From the IMG/VR virus record IMGVR_UViG_3300025030_000357, positions 1 to 28,345 of that record: DNA of 28,345 bases, one strand, 5' to 3'. Origin of the DNA: a virus. A model generated the notes under the pieces. That model had not been told where the DNA came from, did no database searches, and saw only the letters and a program-made list of their open reading frames with translations. Both the position numbers and the translations under genes were made by a program. This document shows, in pieces, positions 10,614 through 28,345 of this stretch. The number at the start of each line of letters is the position of its first letter. Position 1 is the stretch's first letter.

Positions 10614-12484
10614 GGCAAGCCCTCCAGGGGATCCATGCTGGCGTCGTCGAAATCGAGCCCGGAGATCCCGATCGGCTCGCCGCTCTCGAGTGCCTCTTGA
10701 TCGAGCGTAGACTCGTCGCTCTCGAACACGACGGGCTCTAGCTGGACGACGTGCTCAAACACGACGGGCTCTAGCTGGACGACATGCTGCTCTCCACGGA
10801 AAGCCCGACCTGCGTCCACCTCTGACGGGGAGGGCTGATCCGATTCGTCCGGTGTCGTCGTATCGGGATCGGCCTCGGTCACCCCTTCGCCGGGGAGCCC
10901 CCCATCGACGATCTCTGCCTCTGCCCCCAGCTCTTGCACGTAGGCAATCTGAAGGTTGGCCAGCTCCGACATAAGCTCGTCGGGGGGCGCCGCGGGTTCC
11001 GCGGGCACCGCGACGGCGGGGGCCGGCTGCCGATCCAGCTCTGCGTACACCGCGCGGAGGTGATCTTCGTCGGCGTACTCACCCCGTGTCAGCGTGAGCG
11101 TGGTCTGCCCGGCTTGCCCGTATGTGTACGCGTTCACGACCCCCTCGACGTAGTACGTGATCACACCATCATGCCGGTGCTCTCGCACACGGTGCCCGAT
11201 GCGGATCTCCGGCCGCAGTCGCGTTGTGGCGATCGTTCCGCTCAACTCCAACGGGGCCGGCGCGTACCAGTCGTGCAGACGACGCAGCCAGTTACCAGCG
11301 AGCTGCGCGAACTGCGTACCTCTCTCCCGAGAAGAGATCGGAAGAAACGGCGTGCCTTGCTGCCACTTGCGCAGCCCGTACTTCTCGATGCTGGCGATGT
11401 TCCAGATTGGGATCGATCCCGGGCGTCCAGTCTGCGCGCCGTGTTGCTGGAGCACCCCTTGCAGCTCGATACCTTGCCGGCCAGCGAGGTCCATGATCCA
11501 ATAGTTGAACCGATGTGCCGGGCCGCCCTTCGCGACCTGTCTCGCGTTGACGTCGGACAGCTCCAGCTCGTGCGTGAGCAGCCGATCCCACCGCTGTGTA
11601 TCGCCGAGCACCTTGAACGGCTTGCGACGCAGATAGATCGTGGGAACGAGCCCAGATAGCGCGTTCTTGGGTTGCCCCTGAGCTGGGCCCATGTCGAGCC
11701 ACAGCTCGTTTAGCAGACCGTTTGCGTACTCCTGGAGTAACGACCACAGATTCTTGCCGTCTTGGTCAGGGGCGACGAGCGACGCGTCCGCATAGAACCC
11801 GTCGATCTCTTCGTCCTTGCACCCGATCCTACGCCGCAGAATGTCGTAGAACGCTCCACTACCGAGCCCGGGCGGGAGCCTCCACGGTTGAGTCGTGCCC
11901 TCGTAGTTTCCCACCCAGGCGTTGATCAACGCCTCGACGAAACCACCGGGCGGGCCGGTGATGTTCCCTGAGAGGCGCTGGAAGATCCCGGCGATACCGA
12001 CGACAGCCGCTTGATCGTAGATGTTGACGAACGCCTGCGTCTGCTCGAAGATCTTGCCGAAGTCTCGACCTGAGATCGTGTAGACCTCCGCACGTTCACC
12101 TTGGGCTTGTCGCGACGTGTTCTCCGAGACGGTGTCGATGATCCCGAGCGTTCCGTCGATCACCTCCCCGTCGCACACCCACTGGATCAGCACCCACGCG
12201 CCCTCCGGGTCGCTCCACAAGCGCGTCCAGCTCTCCGCCACGCCCGTCCCACGGACGGCCGCAGACGACGCCCGGTGCACCTCCAGCGGCTTTTTCACAG
12301 TGATCGAAAACGCCCCCGCGGCCCCACCGAACTGTTTGCTCGTCTGGGCTCCGACGATGTACCCGAACGCCGGATCGAAGCCATCGACAGAGCCCGAGAA
12401 ACCGTCGCGATCGAAGCTGTAGAACGTGAGCCGCACACGCGTGTGCGTGGCCTGCTCCTCGTAGACTTGCCTCGCGCCGCGCAT
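10610..12484 (-). CDS. Baseplate hub protein (gp27/gpD-like)
   Basis: 624 residues. The N-terminal part has a hub-type beta-barrel opening (FGYIVGAQTSKQFGGAAGAF then SITVKKP), followed by WVLIQWVCDGEVIDGTLGII and a central mixed domain. Near the C-terminal third, RIGHRVREHRHDGVITYYVE resembles the second tube-like domain of gpD/gp27 hubs, which close the tube and seat the spike. Residues about 505-624 are acidic, proline-rich and low-complexity, with an exact 11-residue tandem repeat (HVVQLEPVVFE twice). I see no peptidase, lysozyme or CHAP motif. Start chosen at ATG (TGATG junction with the tape measure stop); an in-frame GTG at 12487 is the alternative. The spike follows directly, as expected. 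Confidence 0.8.
   Translation of the reverse strand: MRGARQVYEEQATHTRVRLTFYSFDRDGFSGSVDGFDPAFGYIVGAQTSKQFGGAAGAFSITVKKPLEVHRASSAAVRGTGVAESWTRLWSDPEGAWVLIQWVCDGEVIDGTLGIIDTVSENTSRQAQGERAEVYTISGRDFGKIFEQTQAFVNIYDQAAVVGIAGIFQRLSGNITGPPGGFVEALINAWVGNYEGTTQPWRLPPGLGSGAFYDILRRRIGCKDEEIDGFYADASLVAPDQDGKNLWSLLQEYANGLLNELWLDMGPAQGQPKNALSGLVPTIYLRRKPFKVLGDTQRWDRLLTHELELSDVNARQVAKGGPAHRFNYWIMDLAGRQGIELQGVLQQHGAQTGRPGSIPIWNIASIEKYGLRKWQQGTPFLPISSRERGTQFAQLAGNWLRRLHDWYAPAPLELSGTIATTRLRPEIRIGHRVREHRHDGVITYYVEGVVNAYTYGQAGQTTLTLTRGEYADEDHLRAVYAELDRQPAPAVAVPAEPAAPPDELMSELANLQIAYVQELGAEAEIVDGGLPGEGVTEADPDTTTPDESDQPSPSEVDAGRAFRGEQHVVQLEPVVFEHVVQLEPVVFESDESTLDQEALESGEPIGISGLDFDDASMDPLEGLP
10721..10786 (-). repeat. 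33-bp tandem duplication inside the hub gene
   Basis: Two adjacent 33-base copies (10721-10753 and 10754-10786) differ at only two bases. Both differences are synonymous (CAC/CAT and TTC/TTT), so each copy encodes HVVQLEPVVFE. The repeat lies in the low-complexity acidic C-terminal tail of the hub, residues 567-588. Confidence 0.95.
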
Positions 12485-14502
12485 CACTCCACCGTAAGAG
12501 CGCCCGCCCCGACCGGATTGACGCTCTCGAGGGCTCGGGCAGCAGCGGTAGCCTCGTCTGCTACGCCTTGGAGGTGTCTGACTGCTGCGGCCGTCCCCTC
12601 CGCCCCCTCTAGTGCGGGGAGCCCCATGGCTATGCGGTTCGCGTTTGTACGTCCGAGGGCTTGCTCGCGAGACTCGCCACGGCGGCCGGTGATCCGCCCG
12701 TCGCGAGCCGCCTGTAGCTCGACGGCTTGGCGCGCCTCTTCCGCAGTGATCGTACGTCTCTGATTGTCCTGTACCGCTTGGTTGACCTCTCCGACGAAGC
12801 TGCGGTTTGGATCCGTCAGGATGCCGAAACCCTCCGCGGTGTTGCGCTCATACTCTGCCGCTGCTTCATCCCCCATGGCCCACCGCACCACGGCGGTCCC
12901 TGGGGCCGCGACCGCCTCCCCGACCCCTGCAACCCCTTCGGCCAACGCTTGCGTTGCTAGCTGTCCGAAACCGCCTTGCTCGAATGCAGTAGCAAGCCTC
13001 TCCATTGACCCGATCAATCGGTTCATGACGGGGGTTATGTGCTGCATTCCAGTGCGCATTACGCGCACGTCGAGGTTCTGGATACGCTGCGCGTTGTTCG
13101 CCTGTCCAGCGCCGACAGATTGCCGTTGTAATGCGAGGTTGCCGGAGAAACGACCTGCGTCGAATGCGCCACCGGCGCTGGATCGCCGACTTGCCACAGT
13201 GTCTTGCGCCAGCGATTGATTGAACGACGCGTCATTGACGTTCATGCCGTTCTCGAACAACTCCCTGGACTGCACCGCCGACATGTCGACGCCGAGGCCC
13301 TCCATCGCAGATCGAATCAAGAAGGCCCCCGTGTCGCCGTCCGAAGCCATGCCTCGGATAGACTGCACGAACGCCTGCATCGCTTGCGGGTCACGGCTCT
13401 CCAGCCGCTCGAGGGCCTGCTGGTATGAAGTGCCACTCCCGAACCCGGCCGCGCGTAGAGCGAGCCCCTGCGCAAAGCCTCGACCTCGTCCGGCGCCACC
13501 CATCCCCTGTCCGAAGCTGCTCGCGAACCGTGAGCCCGCCTCACCCTGAAACGACGCACCCGAGCTGGTGAACGCGGTGAAGAGCTGCAACACGCTGCTC
13601 GGCGCGAGCGGGATGCCCCGCGATCGCGCTTCTTCTGCGAAGCTCGCCACGCCTTGCAGATATTGATCGAGGCGTGTCTCCCGGATCCCCGAAATCAGCC
13701 CTGCGCCGACAGCCTCTTCCATTAGCGCCGATGGGTCGTCCACGCGACCTCCCGACGTCTCCATCGCGCCGACGACGCCGCCTGCTCCGTTCACGCCGAG
13801 GAGCTGCGAGAGCGCGAGCTGCGTCCCGAAAGAACCCGAGAGCCGAGAGCCTGTGAGCCCGCTGCTGCCGGCGAACTGCGCCGCCAACCCAGGGATCATC
13901 CCCGGGGCAAGTCCGTACCCACCTACCCCCTTAGCGACCATGTGATTCATGCCGCCGCGGCCGACGCCCGTTTGCCCGAAGACGGCCGCCTGCGCTTGTT
14001 GCTGTTGCGCATACTCGTTGTAGAGCCGGACCGACGTTTGTGCGGCCGCGCCGAGCGTGCCGCCGATGTAGGGGATGGCCCCGAGCGCCGACGCCACCGC
14101 GCTTCCGCCGACGGCCCCCGCTGCAAGCCCACCGACACCAAGGGCCGTCTGCGTCATCTGCTGCCGGATGAGCTGCCGGGTGCGTTCCTGCTCGCGTTGC
14201 AGGTCACGGGCTCTGCGTTCCTCCGCCCGCTCCCGACGCGCATCCTGCGCCTGCTGGTGCGCGTTTGTACCGCCGGCGCCACTGCCGGGAGCCCCCACAG
14301 AGGCGGCACCCGCCGGAACCCCGCCGACGCTCCCGCCGAGCTTCCGCACCTTCTCGAGCTGCGCCACGATGCGCTTGAGCGAATCCTCGTAGCGGTTCAG
14401 CGCCTTGGCGTCGAACGCGCGCTCCAACGCCTTTGACAGGCCGACCACCTGACGATCGTCGACGCCGATCTCGATCACCGTCTTGTGGCGCGTCTCCGTC
14501 AT
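12484..14502 (-). CDS. Tail tape measure protein
   Basis: 672 residues. Identified by position (after tube and chaperone genes, before hub) and composition: a basic helical N-terminus (residues 20-55), a Gly/Ala/Pro spacer, a charged coiled coil at about 82-115 rich in R, E and Q, then a hydrophobic glycine-rich segment at about 119-153 (ALGVGGLAAGAVGG...IPYIGGTLGAAA) typical of tape measures. The rest is Gln/Ala/Gly-rich helix. The length sets tail length; at roughly 1.5 angstrom per residue this predicts a tail near 100 nm (estimate), shorter than that of Twort-type phages, whose tape measure is about twice as long. ATGA overlap with the upstream stop. No lytic domain is visible. Confidence 0.85.
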   Translation of the reverse strand: MTETRHKTVIEIGVDDRQVVGLSKALERAFDAKALNRYEDSLKRIVAQLEKVRKLGGSVGGVPAGAASVGAPGSGAGGTNAHQQAQDARRERAEERRARDLQREQERTRQLIRQQMTQTALGVGGLAAGAVGGSAVASALGAIPYIGGTLGAAAQTSVRLYNEYAQQQQAQAAVFGQTGVGRGGMNHMVAKGVGGYGLAPGMIPGLAAQFAGSSGLTGSRLSGSFGTQLALSQLLGVNGAGGVVGAMETSGGRVDDPSALMEEAVGAGLISGIRETRLDQYLQGVASFAEEARSRGIPLAPSSVLQLFTAFTSSGASFQGEAGSRFASSFGQGMGGAGRGRGFAQGLALRAAGFGSGTSYQQALERLESRDPQAMQAFVQSIRGMASDGDTGAFLIRSAMEGLGVDMSAVQSRELFENGMNVNDASFNQSLAQDTVASRRSSAGGAFDAGRFSGNLALQRQSVGAGQANNAQRIQNLDVRVMRTGMQHITPVMNRLIGSMERLATAFEQGGFGQLATQALAEGVAGVGEAVAAPGTAVVRWAMGDEAAAEYERNTAEGFGILTDPNRSFVGEVNQAVQDNQRRTITAEEARQAVELQAARDGRITGRRGESREQALGRTNANRIAMGLPALEGAEGTAAAVRHLQGVADEATAAARALESVNPVGAGALTVE

Positions 14503-15775: not shown

Positions 15776-16240
15776 CTAGCTCCTTGTCGCTCTTGCTCGC
15801 CAGCCAGGGGGTCGACGCTCGTTGACAAGCGCAACACCTAGTGGTTGTTTCAAAACTTCGATTCGATGCTTCAAGGTAGCGGGGTCGAGTCCTAGCTCTC
15901 GTGACCAAGCAGCGAGTGTTTGCCGCCTACCGTTGTGTTCTATCCACCGAGTGTTTCGGCGGTTCTCTTTCTGCTGCAAACTCGTGGCCCAGCGTACGTT
16001 ACCAGGAACGTAGCCTTTTGAGTTGTCGATGCGATCGATTTCATGTTGCGCAGATGGTTTCAGACCGATGTGAGCAACAAACAAACGAGGGTCATCAATC
16101 CACGCCTGGTGTATCTCCACACCCAGGTACATTGGATTGCGGCGTACACGGTTCTCCATGGCCCGGAACGTGTCGAACTCCATGGTCCCACTAAGACCGT
16201 GTTGGCGTTGGTCACGCCCAAGTTTGCTGCCCTTCTTCAC
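15776..16240 (-). CDS. HNH homing endonuclease
   Basis: 154 residues. Starts at GTG overlapping the sheath stop as GTGA; no strong SD, so it probably depends on sheath translation. N-terminal residues 14-34 (HGLSGTMEFDTFRAMENRVR) match the usual opening of this family. Residues 66-86 hold the core HEIDRIDNSKGYVPGNVRWA, with H66, D69 and N81 as likely active-site positions, followed by N93-R95. Residues about 98-138 look like a modular helix-turn-helix DNA-binding unit (LAAWSRELGLDPATLKHRI). Compared with typical relatives the 'YGGRGIxVCxRW' part is diverged (YLGVEIHQAW), so activity is not certain. Base composition is AT-richer than its neighbours (about 53% GC by hand over 15841-16200, against 65-70% in sampled flanking lines), supporting recent arrival. 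Confidence 0.85.
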   Translation of the reverse strand: MKKGSKLGRDQRQHGLSGTMEFDTFRAMENRVRRNPMYLGVEIHQAWIDDPRLFVAHIGLKPSAQHEIDRIDNSKGYVPGNVRWATSLQQKENRRNTRWIEHNGRRQTLAAWSRELGLDPATLKHRIEVLKQPLGVALVNERRPPGWRARATRS

Positions 16241-18507
16241 GCTGTCTGTCTCACCGCAACTAGGTGAACGGTTATTGGTATGAAGTTGATCGGGAGCACC
16301 GGGGCGACCTCGACCGACACCGGGAACACGTCCCCGACCTGCTCGACCTGAAGACTCCGCCACGCGACGATGATCTGGTCGTTCACGAGACGGTTCAGCG
16401 TGTCCGCCGCGAGCCCCTTGATGCTCGCGGCGGAGCCGGCGAGCCCCCGCTGGCCGATGCGCTGTTCCAGCGCTCGGCGCAGCTCGTAGACCGCGTAGTT
16501 CGCGGCCGCGTTCGCCGACATCTCCGTGAAGACGACGTTGTCGTCTGCTAGGTGCGTCGTGATCGAGCGCACCCACCGGATCCCGAGGGCGTCGACCTTC
16601 TCGGAGAACATGAGGCCCGCGTCGATCATCTCCTCGGCGTCGTCCTCGACCGTCCAAGAGCTGTCGCGGCGGACGTCCGTCACGAACGGGCGCTTGCGCG
16701 TGAGCGGCTCGCCGACGGGGCTCCCCGCCTGCATGCCGGCGGCCAGCGCCGCGTAGATGAACGGCGGGAACCACTCCTCTTCGAGCGTGTCGGGGTTCGA
16801 GCGCTTGCACTCCTCGGAGATCGCGGAGATGTGCCGCGTCCCGAGCGCCTGGATCTGCGACTTGATGTTGCTCTTGGTCTCGCCGGCTCCAGGCGACGTG
16901 CCGATTCCGACGTAGCCGTTGGCCTCCGAACGCCCGCGGCCCGCACGGTAGACGAGGTGTGTCGCTAGCAGCGCATGGACGGCCGTGTCGTTGGTCAGCG
17001 GCACGATGATGTTGACGCGGCGAGTCTTGAGCAGGTCGAACGCGTCTTGCCACTCCGTAGCGCTCACGACCCCCTCGGAGCCGCCCGTGAGGAAGATGGC
17101 ACCGGCCGTGTTCGCCGGCGGTGCCGTCGCCCCCGTGGCCGCAGCAGCGTCGAGGTACGAACTCTCGTCGGTGATCTTGTCGACGATCGCCATGAGGTCA
17201 CCGAGGAACTCGTAGGCGGCGCCCATCACGCTCTGCGACGTGACCGCGTCGAGGTCGGTGCACTCGTAGGTCGTGGGGTTGCTGACGCTCGTCGTGGCCG
17301 TGAGGCCGTCCTTGCCGTTCAGGTAGTCCGCGAGCCGCTGGATCGTCGTGTAGACGCTCAGGGAGGCCGTCAGAGCGGTCACGGAAACCGTGACGGTGCG
17401 CGCGGCCGCGACGTCGCCGAGCGCGATCACGTCGATGCGGCCGAAGGCGCTCGTTCCGACGACGGGAACAGCCGCACCATTCGTCATGTCGAACCGGCCC
17501 GACACCGCTGCCCCCGTCGAGGAGATGCCCCACACCGCGACGTCGACGGCGGCATTCACGTCGATCGATACCGTGAGCACGCCCGCGGCCGGCGCGTTCG
17601 TGACGATCGCCACACCGCGCGTGAGCGTCGCTGGCGCGAGTGAGAAGAGCGTGGTCGGGATCACGGTGTCGGTGACGAGAATCGTCCCGATGCTCGCCGC
17701 ACTCTTGACCGCGCCGAGCACCTTCGCGAAGGTCAGGAGACCCGGGACTGGCGTCACGCCGTTGAGCGCGATGACCTCGGAGATCGGCACGTTCAGAGCG
17801 TCGAGCCCGTACACCCGGACGGTCTGCGTGGTGTCTCCGGCGTCGCCGCTCACGACACGCACGAGACCGGGGACAGCGATGTTCGCGGTACGCTCCGTGA
17901 CGAGACCTGCTTCGGCCTTCGTCGCCGCGAGAGAGAACGTCGTCGCGTTCTTCGTCGCGCGCACCGTGCTGTACCCGTCGACACCGGGCGTGTAGAGCAG
18001 GTCGAAGATCGGGTCGCCGCCGACGTCGTCGAAAACCTCCGTCTCGTCCTCGAAGACGATCGTGACCTTCTTGCCTTGCGTCGTGCCGGTGGCGACCTGC
18101 ACGTTGATCTGGTTCGTGAAGAGCCCCCAATCGACCGAGGTGAGCGTGATCGAGTTGCCGCCGCTGCCGTCGAGGAGCGTGATCGACGACTGCACGGCCG
18201 GGTTCACCTTCACCGCCACGATCCGCTGCGCACCGCCCGGCACTGCGTCGTCGAGCGATGGCTCGAACGCGAACTGCCCCGCGGTGCGCAGGTTGCCCGA
18301 GCGGTAGGCGGCCAGCATCTTCCCCGGCTGCGTGTAGTCCGAGTAGGTGCTGTCGACGGTGAGCGGCTTGCCGCCCTCGGCCGTGCCGATCAACGCCACG
18401 ATGCCGACGGCCGACGCGCTCACGCCCGCCAGCTCGCTCGCATCGACCACCGCTGCGGCCTGCGGGACGTTGATCCGACGCCCCCCGAAGAAGATTGACG
18501 TCGCCAT
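16237..18507 (-). CDS. Tail sheath protein
   Basis: 756 residues, longer than T4 gp18 (659) and Twort-type sheaths (about 590). The C-terminal block is diagnostic: VFPVSVEVAPVLPINFIPIT followed by VHLVAV, the strand that links neighbouring subunits. Other sheath landmarks are the N-terminal VPQAAAVVDASELAGVSASA, GIGTSPGAGETKSNI and the helical ELRRALEQRIGQRGLAGSAA near residue 680. The extra length lies between about residues 120 and 400, in beta-rich repeats rich in V, T and A that probably form protruding surface domains. ATG is preceded by GGAGG at 6 bases, a strong site fitting a high-copy protein. It contracts around the tube to drive infection. The HNH gene starts on its stop codon. Confidence 0.92.
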   Translation of the reverse strand: MATSIFFGGRRINVPQAAAVVDASELAGVSASAVGIVALIGTAEGGKPLTVDSTYSDYTQPGKMLAAYRSGNLRTAGQFAFEPSLDDAVPGGAQRIVAVKVNPAVQSSITLLDGSGGNSITLTSVDWGLFTNQINVQVATGTTQGKKVTIVFEDETEVFDDVGGDPIFDLLYTPGVDGYSTVRATKNATTFSLAATKAEAGLVTERTANIAVPGLVRVVSGDAGDTTQTVRVYGLDALNVPISEVIALNGVTPVPGLLTFAKVLGAVKSAASIGTILVTDTVIPTTLFSLAPATLTRGVAIVTNAPAAGVLTVSIDVNAAVDVAVWGISSTGAAVSGRFDMTNGAAVPVVGTSAFGRIDVIALGDVAAARTVTVSVTALTASLSVYTTIQRLADYLNGKDGLTATTSVSNPTTYECTDLDAVTSQSVMGAAYEFLGDLMAIVDKITDESSYLDAAAATGATAPPANTAGAIFLTGGSEGVVSATEWQDAFDLLKTRRVNIIVPLTNDTAVHALLATHLVYRAGRGRSEANGYVGIGTSPGAGETKSNIKSQIQALGTRHISAISEECKRSNPDTLEEEWFPPFIYAALAAGMQAGSPVGEPLTRKRPFVTDVRRDSSWTVEDDAEEMIDAGLMFSEKVDALGIRWVRSITTHLADDNVVFTEMSANAAANYAVYELRRALEQRIGQRGLAGSAASIKGLAADTLNRLVNDQIIVAWRSLQVEQVGDVFPVSVEVAPVLPINFIPITVHLVAVRQTA

Positions 18508-19540: not shown

Positions 19541-20330
19541 CGCTGCTGCTCAGAGAAGCGGCCACCAAGCGCATCGCGATCTTCTCGATGTGCTTTTGGA
19601 CCCGCGGTGCAAACCGTCGAGGAGAGACGCCCGGGTGGAACCAGTTTTGCCGGAAGTTGCCGTCCTCGTCCTCCCCCATAGTGACAGATCGAGAGATGGT
19701 GCGGAAGGTCTGATAACTCGATTGCGTCGCCCCTTCGTACTTCTTCTCCTTGCGCACCATACCCATATAGATCGGGGTGGCGTGCCAGGGCTTCTCATGA
19801 CGCGTTAGGATCGCGCGAGCAGCTTCCTTCATCGGCATGTTCGGGTTCAGACGGCCGCCCCAAAGCGTCTTTGCTGCACGGGTCGAAGATGCGGGGCGTG
19901 AGAGCGTGGCCTGAAGTTGCTTCGCCACTTCGTGAATGGCCTCGGGCATCACACGCCCAACGTTGCGCCCGCCTGTTCCCGGAGTGCCGTGGCGGAACGG
20001 GATCACGAGGTAGGGACCTTTCTTCCCCTGCTTGGCCTTCGGCGACTTGAGCATCCACTCGCGCATGTCGCCGCCAGGGAAGCCATTCTCGACGAGGTTC
20101 GGTAGAGTGCCCACCAGCTCGATGAATGCCTTGTTGTCCTTGTAGAATACTTGGATCCCCGCCGCATAGTCGCGCGAGGTGGAGGTCAGCTCGGACTGCG
20201 CGAGCTTCTTCCAAAACTGCACGCCGGCGGCCCCGATCCCCTGCATCGCACGCGACAGGTCAGGGCGACGCGGCATCGCCCCCGCGACCGCGGTGACGAG
20301 CTTGTCGAGGTCGATGCGAAGCAACGTCAC
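19530..20330 (-). CDS. Tail completion protein, HK97 gp10-like
   Basis: 266 residues, starting at GTG that overlaps the previous stop as GTGA. The N-terminal helix and the pattern NLVENGFPGGDMREWML (residues 78-94) are typical of gp10-type proteins: an E-x-G turn, then basic/helical residues. Residues 205-234 carry YQTFRTISRSVTMGEDEDGN and then NWFHPGV, the aromatic 'W.HPG' motif that marks this family in many myoviruses. The protein bridges the neck and the tail and is needed for head-tail joining. Neighbours on both sides are neck proteins. A good family-level call; the exact place in the virion is inferred. Confidence 0.75.
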   Translation of the reverse strand: MTLLRIDLDKLVTAVAGAMPRRPDLSRAMQGIGAAGVQFWKKLAQSELTSTSRDYAAGIQVFYKDNKAFIELVGTLPNLVENGFPGGDMREWMLKSPKAKQGKKGPYLVIPFRHGTPGTGGRNVGRVMPEAIHEVAKQLQATLSRPASSTRAAKTLWGGRLNPNMPMKEAARAILTRHEKPWHATPIYMGMVRKEKKYEGATQSSYQTFRTISRSVTMGEDEDGNFRQNWFHPGVSPRRFAPRVQKHIEKIAMRLVAASLSSSDGT

Positions 20331-21208
20331 AGCCCACCCGTAACAGGCGCGACGACGTCTTTCGGAAGGTTCGCGTCGAGCACGAAGTCCAGGTACGCAG
20401 CACCTTGGATCGGATGAGAGATGATCCGATCGACGTTCTTCGCTGACTTGCGTCCGCTCGTGTCATCTCGGAGCGAATGCGGAACGCTCTGAATGACCCA
20501 CACGGGGTGGAACTCGTAACGCAGACTGATCTTCGTGCCGTCGGGCACGAGTGCATGCCCGACAGCAGTCCACTCGATCCACCCGTCTTTCGTCAGGCGG
20601 TAGTGCACGTCGCGCTCGAGAAACACGGCCTCTGAACCGATCCACACGACGATGCGCGTCACGTCGAGGATTCGATAGCGTGCCGTGTCCGTGTTCATCG
20701 GGAGCACACTCCGGATGCCACGTCGATTGCCCTTCGTGAGCACTTCGTTGAAGGTGGAGACCGAGTCTCGCATCTCCAGGCTGTCACGAAACCCGAGGCG
20801 GTGCTCCGGAAGCACTGTGACGGAGCACTTCCCGTCGAGCCACATCGAGAACTTCTCGAAGATGCGCGTGCCCTTGTCGAACTGGACCATGTGCGCCTGG
20901 ATTGCCAGCGGGTCAATGTAGTAGAAGCCTGACCCGTCGCACAGCGTGCAGTTGATCGCCGCCTGGTTCGTCGTGTCGTCCATGCGCGGGCAGAGCATCG
21001 CCTTGCGCCAAATCACGTACTTCCCATGCTGTGCGATTGCTCGACGGAACTCCTCTTCGCGGAAGTCGGCCCGCGTCTTCCCTTTCGGTGGTGCCAGTGC
21101 GGCCGTTTCTACCGGAGGTCCGGATGGACCTCCGGGACGACGCGGCAGCTCAGTGCGAGGTACCTCCACCCGTCGATCCGGGTTCGTGCTGGGCGCCGGG
21201 GGTTTCAC
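20327..21208 (-). CDS. Neck / head-tail connector protein with Cys motif
   Basis: 293 residues, starting at GTG that overlaps the first neck protein's TGA (GTGA). The first 45 residues are proline-rich and probably disordered. Residues 73-95 contain C73, C87 and C90 in the arrangement C...INCTLCDGSGFYY, like half of a zinc ribbon; a fourth ligand is not obvious (C128 or a His are possible). The rest is beta-rich, with TDTARYRILDVTRIVVWIGS and WIEWTAVGHALVPDGTKISL. In SPO1/Twort-type phages two neck proteins follow the capsid block in this order, so this is the second. It likely seals or adapts the portal to the tail. Connector function is inferred from position. Confidence 0.7.
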   Translation of the reverse strand: MKPPAPSTNPDRRVEVPRTELPRRPGGPSGPPVETAALAPPKGKTRADFREEEFRRAIAQHGKYVIWRKAMLCPRMDDTTNQAAINCTLCDGSGFYYIDPLAIQAHMVQFDKGTRIFEKFSMWLDGKCSVTVLPEHRLGFRDSLEMRDSVSTFNEVLTKGNRRGIRSVLPMNTDTARYRILDVTRIVVWIGSEAVFLERDVHYRLTKDGWIEWTAVGHALVPDGTKISLRYEFHPVWVIQSVPHSLRDDTSGRKSAKNVDRIISHPIQGAAYLDFVLDANLPKDVVAPVTGGL

Positions 21209-22284
21209 GCTACGACCATCCCGCCCACGCGCTTGTAGTACCGGCGGAGCTGCGGCATCTGCTCCTTGATCTGCTTCAAGTATTGAATGATGCGCGCTCC
21301 GAAGCCCGCATTTGTGGCCGACGACGTCGTGCCGACGTTCTGGCTCAAGCCGTCCAGGCTCAAGCTGATCGTTGCGATACCTGCACCGGCGATCAAGTCG
21401 CCGAAGATGTTGAATGGTCCGATGCTCGCGAACATCCCGATGATGTCGATGATATTGCGGGGGATCTTCCCATCCTCGAAACCCGCCGTGTAGGTGATCT
21501 CGAAGAGCTGCGGAAGATGTTGCAGTCCGTTGTAGATCGCCGGGAGGAACGAACCCCCCTGCCCGATCAGCATCTCGGATAGGGTTCCCGCTGTAGGGAT
21601 GATCTGAATGTGGCCCTCGGCCGCGTTCAACCGGAACCACTCGGGGGGAAACTCGACGACGTTCTGTCCGCTCGGATACTGGACCCTAAACTCGCTCACC
21701 TCGATCACTGGATACTGATCGAGCTGCAAGAACTGGAACGCGTTGAAATCCTGAATGTGATAGTCGTGCTTCTCGACGAACTGTGTCGGTAGGATTGAGA
21801 TGTCGATCTGGTGCTCCAACCACCGGATCGCCGTCAAGATGTAGTGCTCGAACGTCGAATCGGGCATCGGCTCGCCCGCGTCGTTCGTCAAATCCACCCC
21901 GAAGAGGTACCGCGCTTTCAGCTCCGGCACCGACAGGATGTTTCGCAGAGCCAGGCCGACACCGGCGATCGAGTCGGATGCTTCCGTCAGCTCTCCGCTC
22001 TTCGTGTTCAGGTACCGGACACGGTAGTAATAGCTCGGGTCTCCCGATCGATCGCGCCACTCGTAGGCGATCTTCGCTGGCTCCAGCGCGGGACGATCAC
22101 TTGTGGAAGTCGCTTCCGTCCATGTGAGCCCCCCGTTGATCGAGCGCTCCACGACGAATCGATCGAAACCTGACGCGACCACGTCGGCGATGTCCTCGTC
22201 GACGATCGCCACCTTGATCACCGTGCCCTTGGCCTCGGTGGTCAGGTTCGTGTTTTCGACCGCTGTGATCGGGAAGTGGGACAT
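21205..22284 (-). CDS. Head completion / neck protein, with N-terminal FN3-like domain
   Basis: 359 residues. Residues about 125-330 resemble, from memory, the first neck protein of Twort/SPO1-type phages: YLFGVDLTNDAGEPMPDSTF then RWLEHQIDISILPTQFVEKH, PPEWFRLNAAEGHIQIIPTA and, near 299-325, AGAGIATISLSLDGLSQNVG. These helices bind the portal to the tail. Residues 1-105 are a separate beta domain with FVVERSINGGLTWTEAT and YYYRVRYLNTKSGELTEASD, the pattern of a fibronectin-III fold; I do not recall it in the Twort proteins, so it may be an addition. ATG has GAGG about 8 bases before it and follows the 30-residue gene by 3 bases. Connector role is well supported. Confidence 0.8.
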   Translation of the reverse strand: MSHFPITAVENTNLTTEAKGTVIKVAIVDEDIADVVASGFDRFVVERSINGGLTWTEATSTSDRPALEPAKIAYEWRDRSGDPSYYYRVRYLNTKSGELTEASDSIAGVGLALRNILSVPELKARYLFGVDLTNDAGEPMPDSTFEHYILTAIRWLEHQIDISILPTQFVEKHDYHIQDFNAFQFLQLDQYPVIEVSEFRVQYPSGQNVVEFPPEWFRLNAAEGHIQIIPTAGTLSEMLIGQGGSFLPAIYNGLQHLPQLFEITYTAGFEDGKIPRNIIDIIGMFASIGPFNIFGDLIAGAGIATISLSLDGLSQNVGTTSSATNAGFGARIIQYLKQIKEQMPQLRRYYKRVGGMVVA

Positions 22285-22381: not shown

Positions 22382-22723
22382 TCAGAACCCTCCGCGCGGC
22401 GGTCCGTGCGTCCACGTCTCGCGGTCGTCCAGGTCCGCGTGAGTCGTCGACGCGTCGATCACTACGCGCACGCCGCCGACCGTCTCTGCGCGCCCGGCGA
22501 GCGCACGGATCGTATCGTCGATCTCGATCGCGGCGCGCCCGTCCGGGTGCACGAGCGGCAGCGTGTGCGTCTCGGTGTAGGCGGGCGGCGAGCCGATCGC
22601 GCGATGGTAGCCGGGCTCCCCGTCCACGTGCGTGCGAGGGTAGCCGAGGGCGCGATCAATCGCGGCGAGTTGTCGGTAGATCGCAGGGTGAGTTGCGCTA
22701 GGGTAGATGCGTACCGGTCTCAT
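22382..22723 (-). CDS. Small structural-region protein, function unknown
   Basis: 113 residues from ATG with GAGGAGG about 5 bases upstream. Mixed helix and strand: RIYPSATHPAIYRQLAAIDR, a Gly/Pro/His stretch (HVDGEPGYHRAIGSPPAYTE), then LPLVHPDGRAAIEIDDTIRA and GGVRVVIDAS, ending in a hydrophilic tail. Eight or more histidines are unusual for its size. It stops one base before the 30-residue gene. The location between the Ig/lectin protein and the neck proteins suggests a minor head or neck component, but no family is recognised. Confidence 0.7.
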   Translation of the reverse strand: MRPVRIYPSATHPAIYRQLAAIDRALGYPRTHVDGEPGYHRAIGSPPAYTETHTLPLVHPDGRAAIEIDDTIRALAGRAETVGGVRVVIDASTTHADLDDRETWTHGPPRGGF

Positions 22724-22733
22724 GCTCGCCTCC

Positions 22734-24614
22734 TCATGGCAGCCCGTACATGGCGCGAACGATCGTCTCGACCGCGGCGATCTGGGTGAGAATGCCCGCG
22801 GTGATTCCGGTGCCGCCCGAGCCGGTCAGGATGACGTCCGCGGCCATCGCGCCCGTGAAGCCGGACGACGAGGCGCCTACGATGTCCGCGAGATTGCCGT
22901 ATCCGCCCGACGTATTACCGTTGAACGTCTGCGCGAGCAGATCGTTGACCCCGTTGAACCTAACGTTTCCTTCGTTTGTTGCCAACGTCGAATCGTTCGT
23001 GCACGTGACGCACGCCGCGGTCGCCATTGTGTGCGCGTTGCTGCGGGGCCCGGAGATGTTAGTCCCGTCGCGGAACTGCGGGATGATTGAATCGGTGAAA
23101 TCGTTGACGACGATTCGATGGTGTCCCGCCGCAGCATCCGCACCGCGCGAGGCGACACGTCGTGTTAGCGTGTCAGAGTCTTTCCACACGACGATCCGAG
23201 CGATCCAGTCCATCGCGCTCAGATCGTACGCGGCAGAGGACATATTCAGCGAGCTCGTGAAGACGAGCGCCGGCCGCGAGCCGTCGAGCCCCGTCGCGTC
23301 GCGGGTCGGGCGCTGCGCGTCGGTGCCCTGCGTGAGGTTGCGCGCGTTGCCCGACTGATCGAGCCAGACGCTTGCTTTCGCGCCCACGAGCGTGAGGTCG
23401 AGCGCGTCGGTGCGCACGAGACGGAGCGCCTGCACGAGGCTCGGGGCCGCGGCGAGGATCGCCGTCGCGCCATTGATCGTCACCGCCGCCGAGTCCGCCG
23501 AGGTCGTGCCGCCGGGGCCGGTGGCGTTCTCGCGCACGACGGCGGCGAGGCCCTCTTGCGCGAGAAGGTACGTGTACGCTTCGACCGTCGCAGCCGACTG
23601 AGCAGTCAAGACGGCGATCGCATTGACCAAGAGGGTGTAGGTGCTGCTCGTCGCGCCGACCACGGTGCCCGCGCCGACCACGGGCGAGCCGCCCGCATAG
23701 GACGTGCCGCCAAGCGTCGGGGCTGCGGAGAAGTAGGGTACGATCGTCTGCGGGTTGCTGGCGGCGGCGACGGTGGTCCCACCCGGCCCTGTCGCGGTCA
23801 CGTTGCAGGCGAGCACGGCGCCGGGGTCCGTTGTCCCGTTGACCGTGTAGGGCGCTGCGATCTCGCCGCCAATGTCCACGCCAGCCCGCGTCCACTGGTA
23901 TCCAGAGGCCGCGCCGCCGAGCACGGTACCTCCGCCACACGTCAACACCTGGCCCGTCGCCGGTGTGCCGCTGATCGAGGGCGCGACCGAGAAGTAGGGG
24001 CGGATGGTCTGCGGGTTGCTGGCGGGAGCAGTCGTCGAACCGCCAGGACCCGTCGCAGTCACGTAGCACGTGAGGGCGGCGCCGGGATCGGTGGTGTTGT
24101 TGACGGTGTACGGCGCGAGAATCTCCCCGCCGATGTCGACGAGCGCTCGCTTCCATTGGAAGGCCCAAGAGGTCGCACCAGCCGTCGTGCCCTGATCGCA
24201 GGTGAGCACCTGGCCGGCGGCCGGCGTGCCGCCAAGCGTCGGGGCCACTGAGAAGTAGGGCTTGCCGATCGCGGCGTTGACCGTCTGGCTCACGGAGCCC
24301 GCGCTGCTCAATGCGGTCTCGATGTAGCTGAGCTGTAAACCAGCTCCGGCCGATGTACGCGTAAACGTGAGTCCCACCGCACCGACAATAGGCACACCTG
24401 CGTAGGTCCAGATACGCGTAACAGCAGGCACAGGCACGCCTGAGTACGTCCCGGGAGTCGCCGTGACCACCGTGCCGACGGACCCGTCGTCCGGCGTGAG
24501 CGAAGGCGCTGTGAGGGCCTTGGGTGCGACGAAGGGAGGCACCTGAAAACGCGCTCGAGCCGGCAGATTTGCCGGAATATGGGCGCTTCCACGTATGCGC
24601 CCCGAGCCCGTCAT
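22734..24614 (-). CDS. Head-region surface protein with Ig-like repeats and lectin-like C-terminus
   Basis: 626 residues. ATG at 24614 is used because GGAAGG lies about 7 bases upstream; a longer frame would run into the previous gene. Residues 36-116 hold an Ig-like domain, then two near-copies follow (about 119-205 and 207-292), each opening with PYFSVAP and each with two cysteines 44 residues apart (C139/C183, C226/C270), as in paired beta sandwiches. A diverged fourth copy spans about 294-381. Residues 395-626 resemble a concanavalin/LamG-type domain (KASVWLDQSGNARNLTQGTD then GSRPALVF). It sits in the head module, so it may decorate the capsid and bind glycans or surfaces; a fibre role cannot be excluded. 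Confidence 0.75.
   Translation of the reverse strand: MTGSGRIRGSAHIPANLPARARFQVPPFVAPKALTAPSLTPDDGSVGTVVTATPGTYSGVPVPAVTRIWTYAGVPIVGAVGLTFTRTSAGAGLQLSYIETALSSAGSVSQTVNAAIGKPYFSVAPTLGGTPAAGQVLTCDQGTTAGATSWAFQWKRALVDIGGEILAPYTVNNTTDPGAALTCYVTATGPGGSTTAPASNPQTIRPYFSVAPSISGTPATGQVLTCGGGTVLGGAASGYQWTRAGVDIGGEIAAPYTVNGTTDPGAVLACNVTATGPGGTTVAAASNPQTIVPYFSAAPTLGGTSYAGGSPVVGAGTVVGATSSTYTLLVNAIAVLTAQSAATVEAYTYLLAQEGLAAVVRENATGPGGTTSADSAAVTINGATAILAAAPSLVQALRLVRTDALDLTLVGAKASVWLDQSGNARNLTQGTDAQRPTRDATGLDGSRPALVFTSSLNMSSAAYDLSAMDWIARIVVWKDSDTLTRRVASRGADAAAGHHRIVVNDFTDSIIPQFRDGTNISGPRSNAHTMATAACVTCTNDSTLATNEGNVRFNGVNDLLAQTFNGNTSGGYGNLADIVGASSSGFTGAMAADVILTGSGGTGITAGILTQIAAVETIVRAMYGLP
23739..24260 (-). 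repeat. Tandem Ig-domain duplication (two copies of about 87 codons)
   Basis: Residues 119-205 and 207-292 of the surface protein are near-copies: both have PYFSVAP, GxVLTC, DIGGEI, APYTVN, TTDPGA and VTATGPGG at matching positions, so the DNA here is an in-frame tandem duplication. The N- and C-terminal Ig units around them are more diverged. Confidence 0.85.
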
Positions 24615-24615
24615 C

Positions 24616-25002
24616 TCAGACCTTCCGCCCGTGATCGATCCGCGTGAAGTAGACCGTGTGTGCGGCACCCGCGGCCGCCACGATCCCGGCGAATCGATCG
24701 TTGTATCCCTGCCTCACGTTCAGCTCGAACACGTACACCCCCTCGGGATCGACAGGGAATGAGGGCACGGCTATCGTCGCAGTGATCGTGCCCGCGGCGA
24801 CGAACTTCCCGAAGCGGAGCCAGCAGCGCGCCGTGGGCTTCCCGCCGGTCCCGAGGAGCACCTGGATCAGGTACCTTCCAGGCTCGATCGCTCCGTCGGC
24901 GTCCGTGATCTGTGCAGATGCCGCGTTGGTGATCTCGAGCTTTCGCGTGATCCCCAAATCCGCGGCGTAGAACGCCATCAAGTCGTCGCCACGTGCACCC
25001 AC
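24616..25002 (-). CDS. Small head-region structural protein
   Basis: 128 residues, starting at GTG supported by AAGGAGG about 6 bases before it. The protein is beta-rich and compact: LEITNAASAQITDADGAIEP, GRYLIQVLLGTGGKPTARCW, VYVFELNVRQGYNDRFAGIV and AHTVYFTRIDHGRKV. It resembles small decoration or head-fibre-type subunits in size and strand pattern, but no family motif is certain. It sits between the poly-proline protein and the Ig/lectin protein, and the next start follows within a couple of bases. Decoration or stabilisation of the capsid is plausible. Confidence 0.7.
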   Translation of the reverse strand: MGARGDDLMAFYAADLGITRKLEITNAASAQITDADGAIEPGRYLIQVLLGTGGKPTARCWLRFGKFVAAGTITATIAVPSFPVDPEGVYVFELNVRQGYNDRFAGIVAAAGAAHTVYFTRIDHGRKV

Positions 25003-25017
25003 GACAGCCTCCTTGCT

Positions 25018-25665
25018 TCACTCGTCGAAGAGCGCTTTCTCCAGCGCGGCGCGAACCTCTGACTTGAGCATCTTCGTGAGATCCGGGATCTCGTAGTCCT
25101 TGGCACGGTATTGCTCCGCGATCCGCAGCAGCTCGGCCTTCGTCTTTCCCTCCAGATCGGGGCCGTCTTCCTCGACGCTGGACTCGACCTCGGCGGCGAG
25201 CACGGGGGGTGGCGGGGGCGGGGGCGGGGGTGGGGGCGGAGGTGGCGGCGGCGGCGGCGGCAGGGTCGACTCGACGACGAGCGCCGACGGCGGTGTTTCG
25301 ACGGCCGGGGGCTCGACGATGGGCAGCTCCGGGGGCGGGCCGGCGCTCTGGACGGCCGGCGGCAACGGCGCAGCAGGTCCCTCGAAGTCGAGGCTCTGCC
25401 GCTCCTGGACGTCGGCGCGCGCCGTGCCGGCGGCGTTCGCCTCGCGCACTAGCCGCCGCGCGTGCTCCTCTTCGTCGAGGTGCGCTGGTCGCGAGAGCAC
25501 CTCCCCCAGACTGGCCCCGTCGATCGGCTGCCACCCGGGCGTGCCGCAGAGCCAGTTGCCGAAGTCGCTCGGCACCTCGAACACCCCGCACGCGTCGCCT
25601 CGATACACCGCCCTGTTCGGGGCGGCCAGGTCGCACAGTGCCAGGTTGATGTTACGCACCTTCAT
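25018..25665 (-). CDS. Poly-proline protein with C-terminal HeH-like segment
   Basis: 215 residues. ATG has GGAGG about 8 bases upstream. Residues 1-60 look folded (NINLALCDLAAPNRAVYRGD, GNWLCGTPGWQPIDG). Residues 95-135 are Pro/Glu-rich. Residues 136-154 are 19 consecutive prolines, encoded by mixed CCG, CCC, CCA and CCT codons, so it is not simple slippage. Residues 171-215 (EGKTKAELLRIAEQYRAKDY, then EVRAALEKALFDE) match a helix-extended-loop-helix (HeH, LEM/SAP-like) segment, often nucleic-acid or protein binding. It is the first gene after the capsid terminator, so it is probably a minor head protein. Translation of the proline run should need elongation factor P. Confidence 0.75.
   Translation of the reverse strand: MKVRNINLALCDLAAPNRAVYRGDACGVFEVPSDFGNWLCGTPGWQPIDGASLGEVLSRPAHLDEEEHARRLVREANAAGTARADVQERQSLDFEGPAAPLPPAVQSAGPPPELPIVEPPAVETPPSALVVESTLPPPPPPPPPPPPPPPPPPPVLAAEVESSVEEDGPDLEGKTKAELLRIAEQYRAKDYEIPDLTKMLKSEVRAALEKALFDE
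25204..25260 (-). repeat. 19-codon proline tract
   Basis: Nineteen consecutive proline codons in the head-region protein: five CCG, then a mix of CCA, CCT, CCC and CCG. The DNA is GC-extreme and strand-asymmetric (G-rich on the plus strand, with several runs of five or more G), so it can form quadruplex-like or other secondary structure on that strand. Confidence 0.9.
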
Positions 25666-25762: not shown

Positions 25763-27196
25763 TCACGCGCTGCCGAGGCTGCCCGGCGCTCGACCGACGT
25801 TCTTCACGACGATGTTCTTCTGCGGCGTGTACATCTTGATGCAGCCGTAGATGACCTGCGCCCAGCGGATGCTGGTGTCCACCGCCGCGAGCGGGATCCT
25901 CGTCATCGGGAGAAGCTGCGCCCACGAGAACGACGCTTGGTTCTGCTGGAGGACGAAGCCCTTGCTCGTGCCGGGGATGTCCGCGTTCGTGTCGGTGATC
26001 ACCTGCGTGACCCCCGACCGCGCGACGCGCGTCATGAGCGCGCACGTGGCCGCCGCGCCGCCGAGCGTGCTGCGGTAGATCTCGTAGAAGGTCGTGCCCT
26101 GGCCGCCGTCGGCGACCGTGAACGTGACCTGCTGGCCCGCGAGGACCGCGACGCTGGCGCTCGTCACAGGTAGCGACAGGCCGAACCGGTTCCCTGCCAC
26201 GACCTTGTAGATGTAGGTCCCGGCGTCGGCCGCGCCGAAGCTCGAGCCCGCGCCGCCGGCGGCCGGTGGCACCGTGATCGCCGCCGCGAGGGGGCGCTTG
26301 CTCGTCGAGCCGAGGCCCGCCGCGAGCGCCGTGGGCCCGTCCTGGATGAAGACGTGGTCGTGGAGGTTGACCTTGCCGTTCTGCCCCTGGAACGCGGTCA
26401 CCTGCGCGCCGAGCACGCCCGGCTGCGGGGCGATCGCGAAGCGCTGGCGGTCGTAGACCTGCTTCGCGAGGTCCGCAAACGCACCCGTGGCGAAGTACGC
26501 GTCGGTGCCCACGCCGAAGTTCTGGCGGATCATGAGCATCATGTCGTTGAGGCGCTCCTCGGTGAGCGGACCGCCGCGGAGGTCGACGACGTTCGTCGGC
26601 GCGCCGTCGGTGATCGACTTCTCGAGGCCGTCGAACTGCTCGGGGATGAGCGAGGAATCGCCGAAGAAGAGCGCGTTCTCGAGGTTCTTCAGCAGCTCCA
26701 TCGTGCGGTTCATCGTCTCTTGCGCGATCACGTTGCCGTGCGCTGCGCGGACGGTGTTCATCACGTGAGTGACGCGGCCCGTGATGCCGAGGTACTTGAT
26801 CAGCACGGTGACGCGCTGGTAGGTCGAGTCCTCTTCCTCGGGGAGATCTCCCTCGGTCATGAAGCCGAGGTTGAAGCGCCTCGTGCCGCCGCGGCCGTAG
26901 GAGGTCAGGCGGTTGAACTCCTCGACGGTGTTGCTCGCCGGGACCTTCGGGATGGTCTTGAAGAGCTTGATCTCGTCCATCTCGTAGGTGAGGTTCTTGA
27001 GCGTCGACTCCAGGCTCTCCGTGCGGAGGGGGAAGCCCTCGCCGGCGGAGGTGCCGGGGTTGTTGACGTCCGAGCCGGCCGCGAGGGCCTTCTGTAGCTG
27101 CGCGAGCTGATCCGGCGTGGACGTACCGAAGCCGTCGCCGTACCCCCCCGAGCCGAAGCCGGCGTAATCGCGCGCCGAAACGTGTGCTCCGAGCAT
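25763..27196 (-). CDS. Major capsid protein (HK97 fold)
   Basis: 477 residues. ATG has GAAGGAGA about 6 bases upstream. The pattern matches, from memory, the SPO1/Twort-type capsid protein: NALFFGDSSLIPEQFDGLEK (about 174-193), then LTEERLNDMMLMIRQNFGVG and TDAYFATGAFADLAKQVYDR, the P-domain spine helices. Residues about 300-415 form a beta-rich insert (YIYKVVAGNRFGLSLPVTSA, EIYRST) like an FN3 or Ig domain, also present in the Staphylococcus phage K protein as I recall it. The C-terminal block is AQLLPMTRIPLAAVDTSIRW then CIKMYTPQKNIVVKNV. The N-terminal 60 residues are Gly/Ser-rich and may be cut at maturation. It forms the icosahedral shell; the putative scaffold gene is just upstream. Confidence 0.9.
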   Translation of the reverse strand: MLGAHVSARDYAGFGSGGYGDGFGTSTPDQLAQLQKALAAGSDVNNPGTSAGEGFPLRTESLESTLKNLTYEMDEIKLFKTIPKVPASNTVEEFNRLTSYGRGGTRRFNLGFMTEGDLPEEEDSTYQRVTVLIKYLGITGRVTHVMNTVRAAHGNVIAQETMNRTMELLKNLENALFFGDSSLIPEQFDGLEKSITDGAPTNVVDLRGGPLTEERLNDMMLMIRQNFGVGTDAYFATGAFADLAKQVYDRQRFAIAPQPGVLGAQVTAFQGQNGKVNLHDHVFIQDGPTALAAGLGSTSKRPLAAAITVPPAAGGAGSSFGAADAGTYIYKVVAGNRFGLSLPVTSASVAVLAGQQVTFTVADGGQGTTFYEIYRSTLGGAAATCALMTRVARSGVTQVITDTNADIPGTSKGFVLQQNQASFSWAQLLPMTRIPLAAVDTSIRWAQVIYGCIKMYTPQKNIVVKNVGRAPGSLGSA

Positions 27197-27246: not shown

Positions 27247-28143
27247 TCAGTGGTAGCTCTTGGCGAGGTTCTGCTCCGACGGCGAGCAGCCCTTCAAGAA
27301 GTTGGTGACGGCCGAGTGCGTCTCTTGGTCGTAGACGCCTCCGCCCTCGAGCAGGCCGATCAGCTCGAACGTGCGGCGGCCGCCGATCTCGCGCATCCCC
27401 TTCTCGAGGTTCATGTACGAGAGCGTCGAGAGCACCTCGCTCTTGTTGAGCTGCTCCGAGGGTGCTCCGGTCTCGCCCGGCATGGCCTTGTTGAGCGGCT
27501 GTGCCGTGCCCGTGACGCCACGCTGCACCGGGACCGGAGCGTGCTCCAGCACACCGAGCTTCGCGCCGAGATGGTTGATGACCTTGGCCTGGCTCTTGAC
27601 GAGGTTGCCGATCTGAGAGACCGCCGCCGCGAGCGCCTTGTTGACGCCAGCCTGGCTCTGCTGGCTGCCGAGCATGCTCTTCGTGAGCGCGTCGATCCTG
27701 TCGCCCACGGCGGTCGTGAGGCCGTCGAGGTAGGGCGAGATGTCGACCATCTGCTGATCGTCGCCGAGCTGATCGCCGAGCTGATCGCGGAAGCTCTTGG
27801 CGAGGTTGCCCTGCGGCTCGCTCTTGAACGCGGGCGGACAGCCGCCGCCTTCGCCGGACTCGTCGTCGTCCTTGCCCTTGCCCTTGCCGCTCATGAAGGC
27901 GCTGAACGCCGCGATGAGCCCGCTGGGGAGACCGGCCGCCTCCATCTTCGCGATCATCATCGAGTCGAGCGTGCCCGAGTCGCTCCACGAGCCCTGGCCG
28001 CCGCCCTGCTTGCCGCCCGAGCCGACCGTGCCGCTGTTCTCGATGCCGCCCTTGCGGAGGTCGGTCGCGTCGGCCGCCTTGACGAGCTTCGCCAAGAGCC
28101 CCTCGAGCTTATCCACGTCGACCGTCTCGTTCTGTTCCGCCAT
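27247..28143 (-). CDS. Putative scaffold / prohead core protein
   Basis: 298 residues. ATG at 28143 chosen: GGAGA lies about 8 bases before it, and the longer in-frame start would lie inside the preceding gene. The protein is hydrophilic, with a short helical N-terminus (VDKLEGLLAKLVKAAD), a Gly/Ser linker, an acidic patch (KDDDESGEG) and a helical segment at about 160-200 (NKALAAAVSQIGNLVKSQAK...GAKLGVLE), a coiled-coil pattern seen in scaffolds. A 12-base tandem repeat gives GDQLGDQLGDD near residue 123. NLAKSF and NLAKSY recur at residues 113 and 292. It lies directly before the capsid gene, as scaffolds do. No family match is recognised; the role is inferred from position and composition. 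Confidence 0.6.
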   Translation of the reverse strand: MAEQNETVDVDKLEGLLAKLVKAADATDLRKGGIENSGTVGSGGKQGGGQGSWSDSGTLDSMMIAKMEAAGLPSGLIAAFSAFMSGKGKGKDDDESGEGGGCPPAFKSEPQGNLAKSFRDQLGDQLGDDQQMVDISPYLDGLTTAVGDRIDALTKSMLGSQQSQAGVNKALAAAVSQIGNLVKSQAKVINHLGAKLGVLEHAPVPVQRGVTGTAQPLNKAMPGETGAPSEQLNKSEVLSTLSYMNLEKGMREIGGRRTFELIGLLEGGGVYDQETHSAVTNFLKGCSPSEQNLAKSYH

Positions 28144-28162
28144 GATGGTTCTCTCCAGTTTC

Positions 28163-28345
28163 CTACGCGGCCTCGGCGGGCCGCATCGCGAAGTTGACGA
28201 TCTGTTCTGCTGCGCCCCTGGATAGCCGAGGCTCCAGCTCACACAGCAGATCCAGGGCTTCCGACTTCGTCATGCGCCTCTTCTTCCGGCGCTTCTTGTC
28301 GGGCGGGGGATCCGCCTCGAGTGATTGTGGTACGAGCGGGACACC
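28163..28345 (-). CDS. C-terminal end of an unidentified gene (5' end outside window)
   Basis: The frame is open from the window edge to a TAG, giving 60 residues. They contain a strongly basic cluster (KKRRKKRRM at residues 17-25) followed by a helix (SEALDLLCELEPRLSRGAAE) and a short tail NFAMRPAEAA. In SPO1/Twort-type order the gene before the scaffold and capsid genes is the prohead protease or portal, so this could be the tail end of one of these, or a small protein starting at the in-frame ATG at 28273. The visible part does not decide. Confidence 0.6.
   Translation of the reverse strand, partial: GVPLVPQSLEADPPPDKKRRKKRRMTKSEALDLLCELEPRLSRGAAEQIVNFAMRPAEAA

Follow-up and report, generated by a model that had tools for sequence, protein, structure and literature searches.

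A hypervariable slot in an SPO1-type phage head module carries an immunoglobulin-repeat and concanavalin A-like protein, a candidate virion-surface adhesin

Why does a phage encode a string of immunoglobulin (Ig)-like repeats with a concanavalin A (ConA)-like domain among its head genes, and where would such a protein act? The question is raised by P0001, a 626 aa protein present in single copy in the record of an uncultivated, SPO1-related phage, of 28,345 bases and 65 % GC, the whole of which is called the window here. A sequence-only reading had placed the gene between capsid and neck genes, and the family profiles agree: the major capsid protein (MCP) lies on one side, adaptor and stopper on the other. 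The assigned genes of the module are all on the minus strand, in the order scaffold, MCP, g215, g128, P0001, g113, adaptor, stopper and sheath:

27247-28242, minus strand: probable scaffolding protein, start not fixed (phrog_15087, E 0.0061; conserved upstream of the MCP in relatives)
25763-27196, minus strand: MCP of the SPO1 type (phrog_752, E 7.3e-94; Pfam SU10_MCP, 1.4e-11)
25018-25665, minus strand: g215, with a small N-terminal domain, a proline-rich linker and a weakly SAP/Rho_N-like C-terminus
24616-25002, minus strand: g128, a small protein conserved among these phages and frequently present as a tandem pair; it bounds the slot upstream
22734-24614, minus strand: P0001, Ig-repeat and ConA-like protein
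22382-22723, minus strand: g113, a 113-aa orphan of no family; remainder of the slot
21205-22284, minus strand: head-tail adaptor, counterpart of SPO1 gp6.3 (phrog_772, E 3.2e-59; phrog_442, 4.3e-5); downstream border of the slot
20327-21244, minus strand: probable stopper or virion structural protein, start not fixed, within the reading frame 20327-21640 (phrog_1004, E 6.5e-23)
16237-18507, minus strand: tail sheath (phrog_279, E 1e-53)

The phrog_752 MCP, the phrog_772 adaptor, the phrog_1004 protein and the sheath follow each other as in a Herelleviridae-type (SPO1-like) head module. SPO1 and phage 812 of the Herelleviridae show the same order of MCP, gp6.2-like gene, adaptor, stopper and sheath; the relation of the window, a 28 kb fragment, to SPO1 is based on this head module. 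Adaptor and stopper of phage 812 are gp96 and gp97, respectively (PMC12886913), and by analogy of position the phrog_1004 protein is probably the stopper. The MCP matched 632 phage records, with an identity of at most 35.3 % to the 30 isolates listed of these 632. Between MCP and adaptor, the genomes of SPO1, Morganella phage Mecenats66 and Thermus phage Cumys hold no more than one or two small genes, whereas the window has four. Of these, g215 resembles SPO1 gp6.2 in position and, by eye, in layout; homology of g215 or g128 to gp6.2 was rejected, as no significant sequence match was obtained. The g128 family is an orphan in the PHROGs (one of 16 members matched one family, E 0.64) and found no relative among PDB sequences (best E 1.4); a g128 query from an internal start also retrieved no relatives. 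Three details of the module were noted in passing: residues 302-409 in the C-terminal part of the MCP match phrog_19622 (1.5e-4) and look by eye like an inserted FnIII-like domain, the g215 linker contains a run of 19 prolines (25204-25260) within a GGC/GGCGGG repeat, and the N-terminus of the adaptor (21205-22284) is about 115 aa longer than that of SPO1 gp6.3, the extension resembling an FnIII-type sandwich by eye. Among the open-licence titles and abstract beginnings listed, none described an Ig and ConA protein from an SPO1-like head module.

The reading frame of P0001 runs from an ATG at 24614 to a stop at 22734. One base separates its start from the stop codon of the preceding gene, and a GGAAGG-like site lies a few bases before the start. 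The GC content at third codon positions is 0.81, below that of the MCP (0.95) and the sheath (0.90), so that very high abundance of the protein is not indicated, although this evidence is weak. Five parts were distinguished:

24267-24530, minus strand: Ig-like unit 1 (aa 29-116), AlphaFold2 pLDDT about 87-96; aligns with Ig domain 1 of phage phiXF1
24003-24266, minus strand: Ig-like unit 2 (aa 117-204) with Cys139/Cys183, from sequence and AlphaFold2
23739-24002, minus strand: Ig-like unit 3 (aa 205-292) with Cys226/Cys270, from sequence and AlphaFold2
23469-23738, minus strand: degenerate unit 4 (aa 293-382), without cysteines, similar in sequence to units 2 and 3
22737-23465, minus strand: ConA-like domain of LamG/AbfB type (aa 384-626), AlphaFold2 pTM 0.81, VIA and profiles

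Between units 2 and 3, 62 of 87 residues are identical (71 % protein identity), with an alignment score of 331 against a maximum of 63 in 500 shuffles. Despite the lost cysteines unit 4 is a real repeat, because its scores against unit 2 (110, shuffle maximum 60) and unit 3 (106, maximum 69) were reached by none of 500 shuffles. For unit 1, similarity to unit 2 (14 of 500 shuffles reached the score) and to unit 3 (6 of 500) is not clearly above chance, and similarity to unit 4 is at chance (175 of 500); a local tblastn aligned it with Ig domain 1 of Xanthomonas phage phiXF1. The proposal that the two central copies arose by recent duplication had to be given up: the same codon is used at 29 of the 62 identical residues, with 29.1 expected from codon usage, and the DNA is identical at 177 of 261 positions. 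Synonymous sites thus look saturated, which points to an ancient duplication or to maintained similarity.

An AlphaFold2 model of P0001, calculated with a 54-row alignment, presented three confident Ig sandwiches over residues 28-295, most blocks of ten residues having a mean pLDDT of 87-96. The cysteines of the protein are at 139, 183, 226, 270, 535 and 538; the pairs 139/183 and 226/270, each 44 residues apart as described earlier, fall in the modelled strands 136-139, 180-189, 223-226 and 267-276. The near-invariant tryptophan 154 lies within the modelled strand 149-156, and a Cys-Trp-Cys succession is the usual layout of Ig domains. This first model had no confidence from residue 305 to about 590, the pLDDT staying under 50 for most residues of 305-587, probably due to a mixed alignment, and the ConA part was refolded alone. 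Of the three to four Ig-like units initially counted, three are thus backed by a predicted structure, while the fourth did not obtain a confident model and is a putative Ig-like domain by its sequence.

The relatives of the Ig part bear on its possible place on the virion. Two PDB sequences were related, 9ncf_S ("Immunoglobulin-like domain protein", E 7.2e-6) and 9c2d_S (E 2.8e-5); the latter is labelled "tail protein", yet is actually gp20 of Shigella phage Sf14, a Hoc-like capsid decoration protein. A match in Stenotrophomonas phage Moby (E 1e-3) is annotated as capsid decoration protein. Foldseek retrieved strings of Ig and FnIII domains, with Hoc of RB49 (3shs, E 7.5e-6) ranked 33rd after numerous Ig proteins of animals, and the VIA alignments of the string spanned residues 27-296. 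Human CD22, a sialic-acid-binding protein among these matches (VIA Z 10, rmsd 11.8), was taken to share the Ig fold only. In the sources as far as available, Sf14 gp20 is an Ig decoration protein with an N-terminal capsid-binding domain of 118 aa (PMC11821841), the capsid-binding domain of T4 Hoc is C-terminal (PMC10385173), and Hoc, pb10 and N4 gp17 are Ig decoration proteins tied to adhesion (PMC7602432). P0001 has tandem Ig-like domains like Sf14 gp20 and T4 Hoc, but differs from them in the additional C-terminal ConA-like domain and in its position in the interval between MCP and adaptor. Its matches cover only residues 125-355 of Sf14 gp20, and no Hoc-type capsid-binding domain was recognised in P0001, where only some 28 residues precede the first Ig unit and the C-terminus is ConA-like. 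P0001 is not filed as a member of the Hoc type because this domain is missing; a short or unrelated capsid-binding segment is possible. The suggestion that P0001 decorates the capsid as other Ig-bearing proteins do became plausible through the match to Sf14 gp20 and through the LamG/ConA or head-decoration domains in the slots of relatives (below); the missing counterpart of the capsid-binding domain of about 118 aa, and the mostly tail and fibre families named next to ConA relatives, argue against it.

The ConA part (aa 384-626, 243 aa), folded alone with a 48-row alignment, yielded a model with a pLDDT of 76.6 and a pTM of 0.81. Model and profiles support the early recognition of a concanavalin/LamG-like domain behind the Ig units, and the predicted ConA-like jelly roll is a fold of the carbohydrate-binding type. 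Foldseek and VIA found AbnA domain 4, the GH54 enzyme AbfB, the tailspike of cyanopodophage Pan3 and trypanosomal sialidases; Z was about 18 for AbnA domain 4, AbfB and the Pan3 tailspike (VIA Z 18.4 to AbnA as well as to the tailspike), and the best solved fold relative is a tailspike protein. In BFVD the fold matches included many phage proteins, several of them named ConA-like or LamG-like. By sequence, profiles of the ConA family matched AbfB (E 3.4e-6) and pappalysin-2 (E 0.0022). ArabFuran-catal was matched by 14 of the 48 family members and Laminin_G_3 by 12, while the domain of P0001 itself had no Pfam family match, including neither of these two. Aligned to the profile, the AbfB segment VDMENN, which we take to hold the nucleophile E221, the catalytic glutamate (own numbering of AbfB), faces the consensus lkatdnn; this would hint at a non-catalytic module, although the match is weak there (i-Evalue 1.2). 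Binding domains of clostridial neurotoxins in the fold lists share the common fold and suggest nothing on toxicity. Sugar binding by P0001 would be in line with the predicted fold, although a fold alone is no demonstration. The LamG domains of a Pseudomonas jumbo phage have been proposed, in the available part of that report, to act in the contact to the cell surface (PMC8541153).

Phage proteins with 21-26 % identity to the ConA part are KBS-S-2A CPKG_00053, S-SRP02 p007 and CL131 gp26. They are ConA-like as P0001, but have only 253-287 aa and lack the Ig part; they have the fold of AbfB and AbnA domain 4, which is also the one predicted for the C-terminus of P0001. CPKG_00053 is encoded between the genes for the adaptor Ad1 and the head closure protein Hc1, with other genes intervening. 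A further comparison is gp76 of phiCbK, a proposed head filament with a ConA-like domain and a gene nearer to head than to tail genes (PMC3556154). Unlike P0001, it has 2,799 aa, is glycine-rich and was undetected in virions, and the text available mentions no Ig domain (PMC3556154).

ConA relatives occurred in at least 73 viral loci, and 88 of their neighbours, when scanned, matched 118 PHROGs; among the 25 most frequent of these families were 13 of tail, minor tail or tail fibre, three of virion structure, nine unnamed and none of the head. These families, the Pan3 tailspike among the top fold matches and a match of the Ig part to phrog_3995, a "tail protein" (E 7.4e-5), would fit a receptor-binding protein of the tail-fibre or tailspike type that is merely encoded in the head module. 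We consider this improbable, as phrog_3995 covers the Ig repeats only and the "tail protein" 9c2d_S belongs to a capsid, while about 4 to 23 kb separate P0001 from sheath, baseplate and five unassigned genes beyond them. It also has to face an Ig and ConA gene next to the adaptor gene in a second phage. Both profiles, Ig and ConA, coincided in two open reading frames among all loci compared, that of the window and that of IMGVR_UViG_3300050821_000207 (L161). On the whole contig of the latter (L185) the gene is directly upstream of one for a 231-aa protein with a Pfam match to SU10_adaptor (2.6e-11). Order of the domains and adaptor-side location are those of P0001; differences are a second LamG-like part seen by eye, another phage type and a 5' end cut by the contig end. 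Hence, an Ig and ConA gene is located at the adaptor gene in a second, different phage type. A collagen-like protein, recognised by eye, is encoded further downstream on this contig. In another locus (L177:2621-6437) the two halves are neighbours, a ConA-like gene (563 aa) directly preceding an Ig-repeat gene (704 aa); this record matches P0001 in the Ig part only (E 5.2e-14).

The arrangement on the second contig slightly lowered our estimate for the fibre and slightly raised that for a whisker or collar fibre of the neck, in which P0001 would surround adaptor or stopper with the Ig string projecting. The slot directly precedes the adaptor gene, a weak match of the Ig part in Stenotrophomonas phage Marzo (E 7e-4) is annotated as "whisker protein", and the related phage 812 presents a putative neck-whisker density around its adaptor, which the available text assigns to no gene (PMC12886913). 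We regard this location as unlikely, though to be taken seriously, for the slot contents seem to vary more than one would expect of a fixed structural part, and one relative (L015) has small genes only in its slot, so that a whisker would not be a constant component.

This variability emerged from a scan with the MCP, which detected 21 viral loci and one genome contig (L186); the latter belongs to a metagenome bin labelled Gammaproteobacteria, which is weak evidence of the host. The pairs L003/L004, L010/L011 and L017/L018 were identical over the shared stretch and each was counted once, six loci ending before the adaptor (L005, L006, L008, L009, L013, L014) and two distant ones (L021, L022, MCP 45-46 %) were left out, and for L019 and L020 additional contig pieces were joined to complete the locus. 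Twelve distinct phages with a complete slot resulted, the window included. Identities of the relatives to the window were 69-78 % for the MCP and 56-68 % for the adaptor, while the slot, its length taken between the last g128 and the adaptor (in L015, between MCP and adaptor), ranged from 1.2 to 14.2 kb. Seven phages have two copies of g128, four have one and L015 has none. None of the other 11 complete slots gave a tblastn match to P0001 at E 1e-3. Relatives of P0001 were absent from the results for all 15 related records searched whole, an empty result that alone is no proof of absence, and no close relative of the entire protein was confirmed in viral_contigs (158 pattern stretches) or genome_contigs (40 stretches).

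Other slots carry other large proteins. L017 encodes a 1033 aa protein with Laminin_G_3 (8.7e-11) and the same ConA profile as P0001 (3.9e-11), and L186 a 449 aa protein with Laminin_G_3 (2.7e-15). In L007:11449-12342 a g128 copy lacking the last segment continues in frame into a LamG-like part, for which the Laminin_G_3 match (E 0.0055) falls below the Pfam cut-off. LamG/ConA domains are thus present in at least three of the other 11 slots, one of them weak; this is a lower bound, because only part of the slot reading frames was compared with Pfam, the others scanned showing no ConA match. A 753 aa protein in L020 has a domain of the head-decoration family phrog_2647 (7.1e-21). The L019 phage has three tandem paralogs of 573, 581 and 550 aa (L187:7609-12753), 52-57 % identical and without a Pfam match, in a slot of 14 kb.

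Further kinds of cargo were also observed. Patatin-like phospholipases are encoded in L002:6842-7816 (Pfam 6.1e-32) and L019:18647-19398 (2.2e-24), and downstream of the L007 fusion gene come a gene for a PAS histidine kinase (Pfam) and two reading frames that resemble response regulators by eye. A 301-aa slot protein in L012:12700-13605 is weakly similar to Hint domains of intein-like self-processing (Hint_2, E 1.1e-5, below the Pfam cut-off).

The clearly non-structural patatin and histidine kinase genes count against a virion-surface role of P0001. With patatin-like and two-component genes in the same place, P0001 might be an accessory protein outside the virion, e.g. released or displayed on the infected cell; we find this very doubtful, as no signal peptide was noticed by eye and the ConA part resembles many phage proteins. 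We rather see in P0001 a binding protein of the virion surface, a reading in which we have good confidence. A position on the capsid, rather than at neck or tail, appears to us about evenly balanced, and the same weight is given to the complete proposal of an exchangeable surface adhesin that is made together with the head and most likely sits on the capsid. In this proposal the N-terminal segment of about 28 residues would anchor the protein to the head, with the capsid shell as the most likely site, the four Ig-like domains would form a stalk, and the ConA-like domain would point outward and bind the target, most likely sugars in the envelope of the host or in the matrix surrounding its cells. 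Virions might thereby be kept near hosts before the tail receptors engage. Mucus as target was dropped, no evidence on host or habitat being at hand.

P0001 is probably one of many interchangeable surface adhesins and, as a variation on a theme already known, not without precedent. New here is its position, a hypervariable slot between the conserved g128 and the adaptor in which the cargo turns over between related phages. Ig-bearing capsid proteins are leading candidates for phage attachment to surfaces before infection, and a slot with cargo turnover between relatives of 69-78 % MCP identity and with recurrent lectin-like domains would offer a natural series of head adhesins for comparison. 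More tentatively, and with limited confidence, the head of this phage group may have a slot dedicated to display, with g128 as a docking base on the capsid into which each lineage plugs its own large surface protein: Ig and ConA, LamG, head-decoration-like or tandem paralogs. If this were true, the g128-LamG gene of L007 would be a natural display fusion, and g128 a testable base for protein display on SPO1-type capsids.

Two observations concern the tail side of the window. A 141-aa protein encoded beyond the baseplate genes (2510-2935) carries an IPT/TIG (Ig-like) domain, the Pfam match (E 1.4e-4) passing the cut-off, and the tail gene at 10610-12487 includes a 33-base repeat of 2.1 copies with 94 % match (10721-10788).
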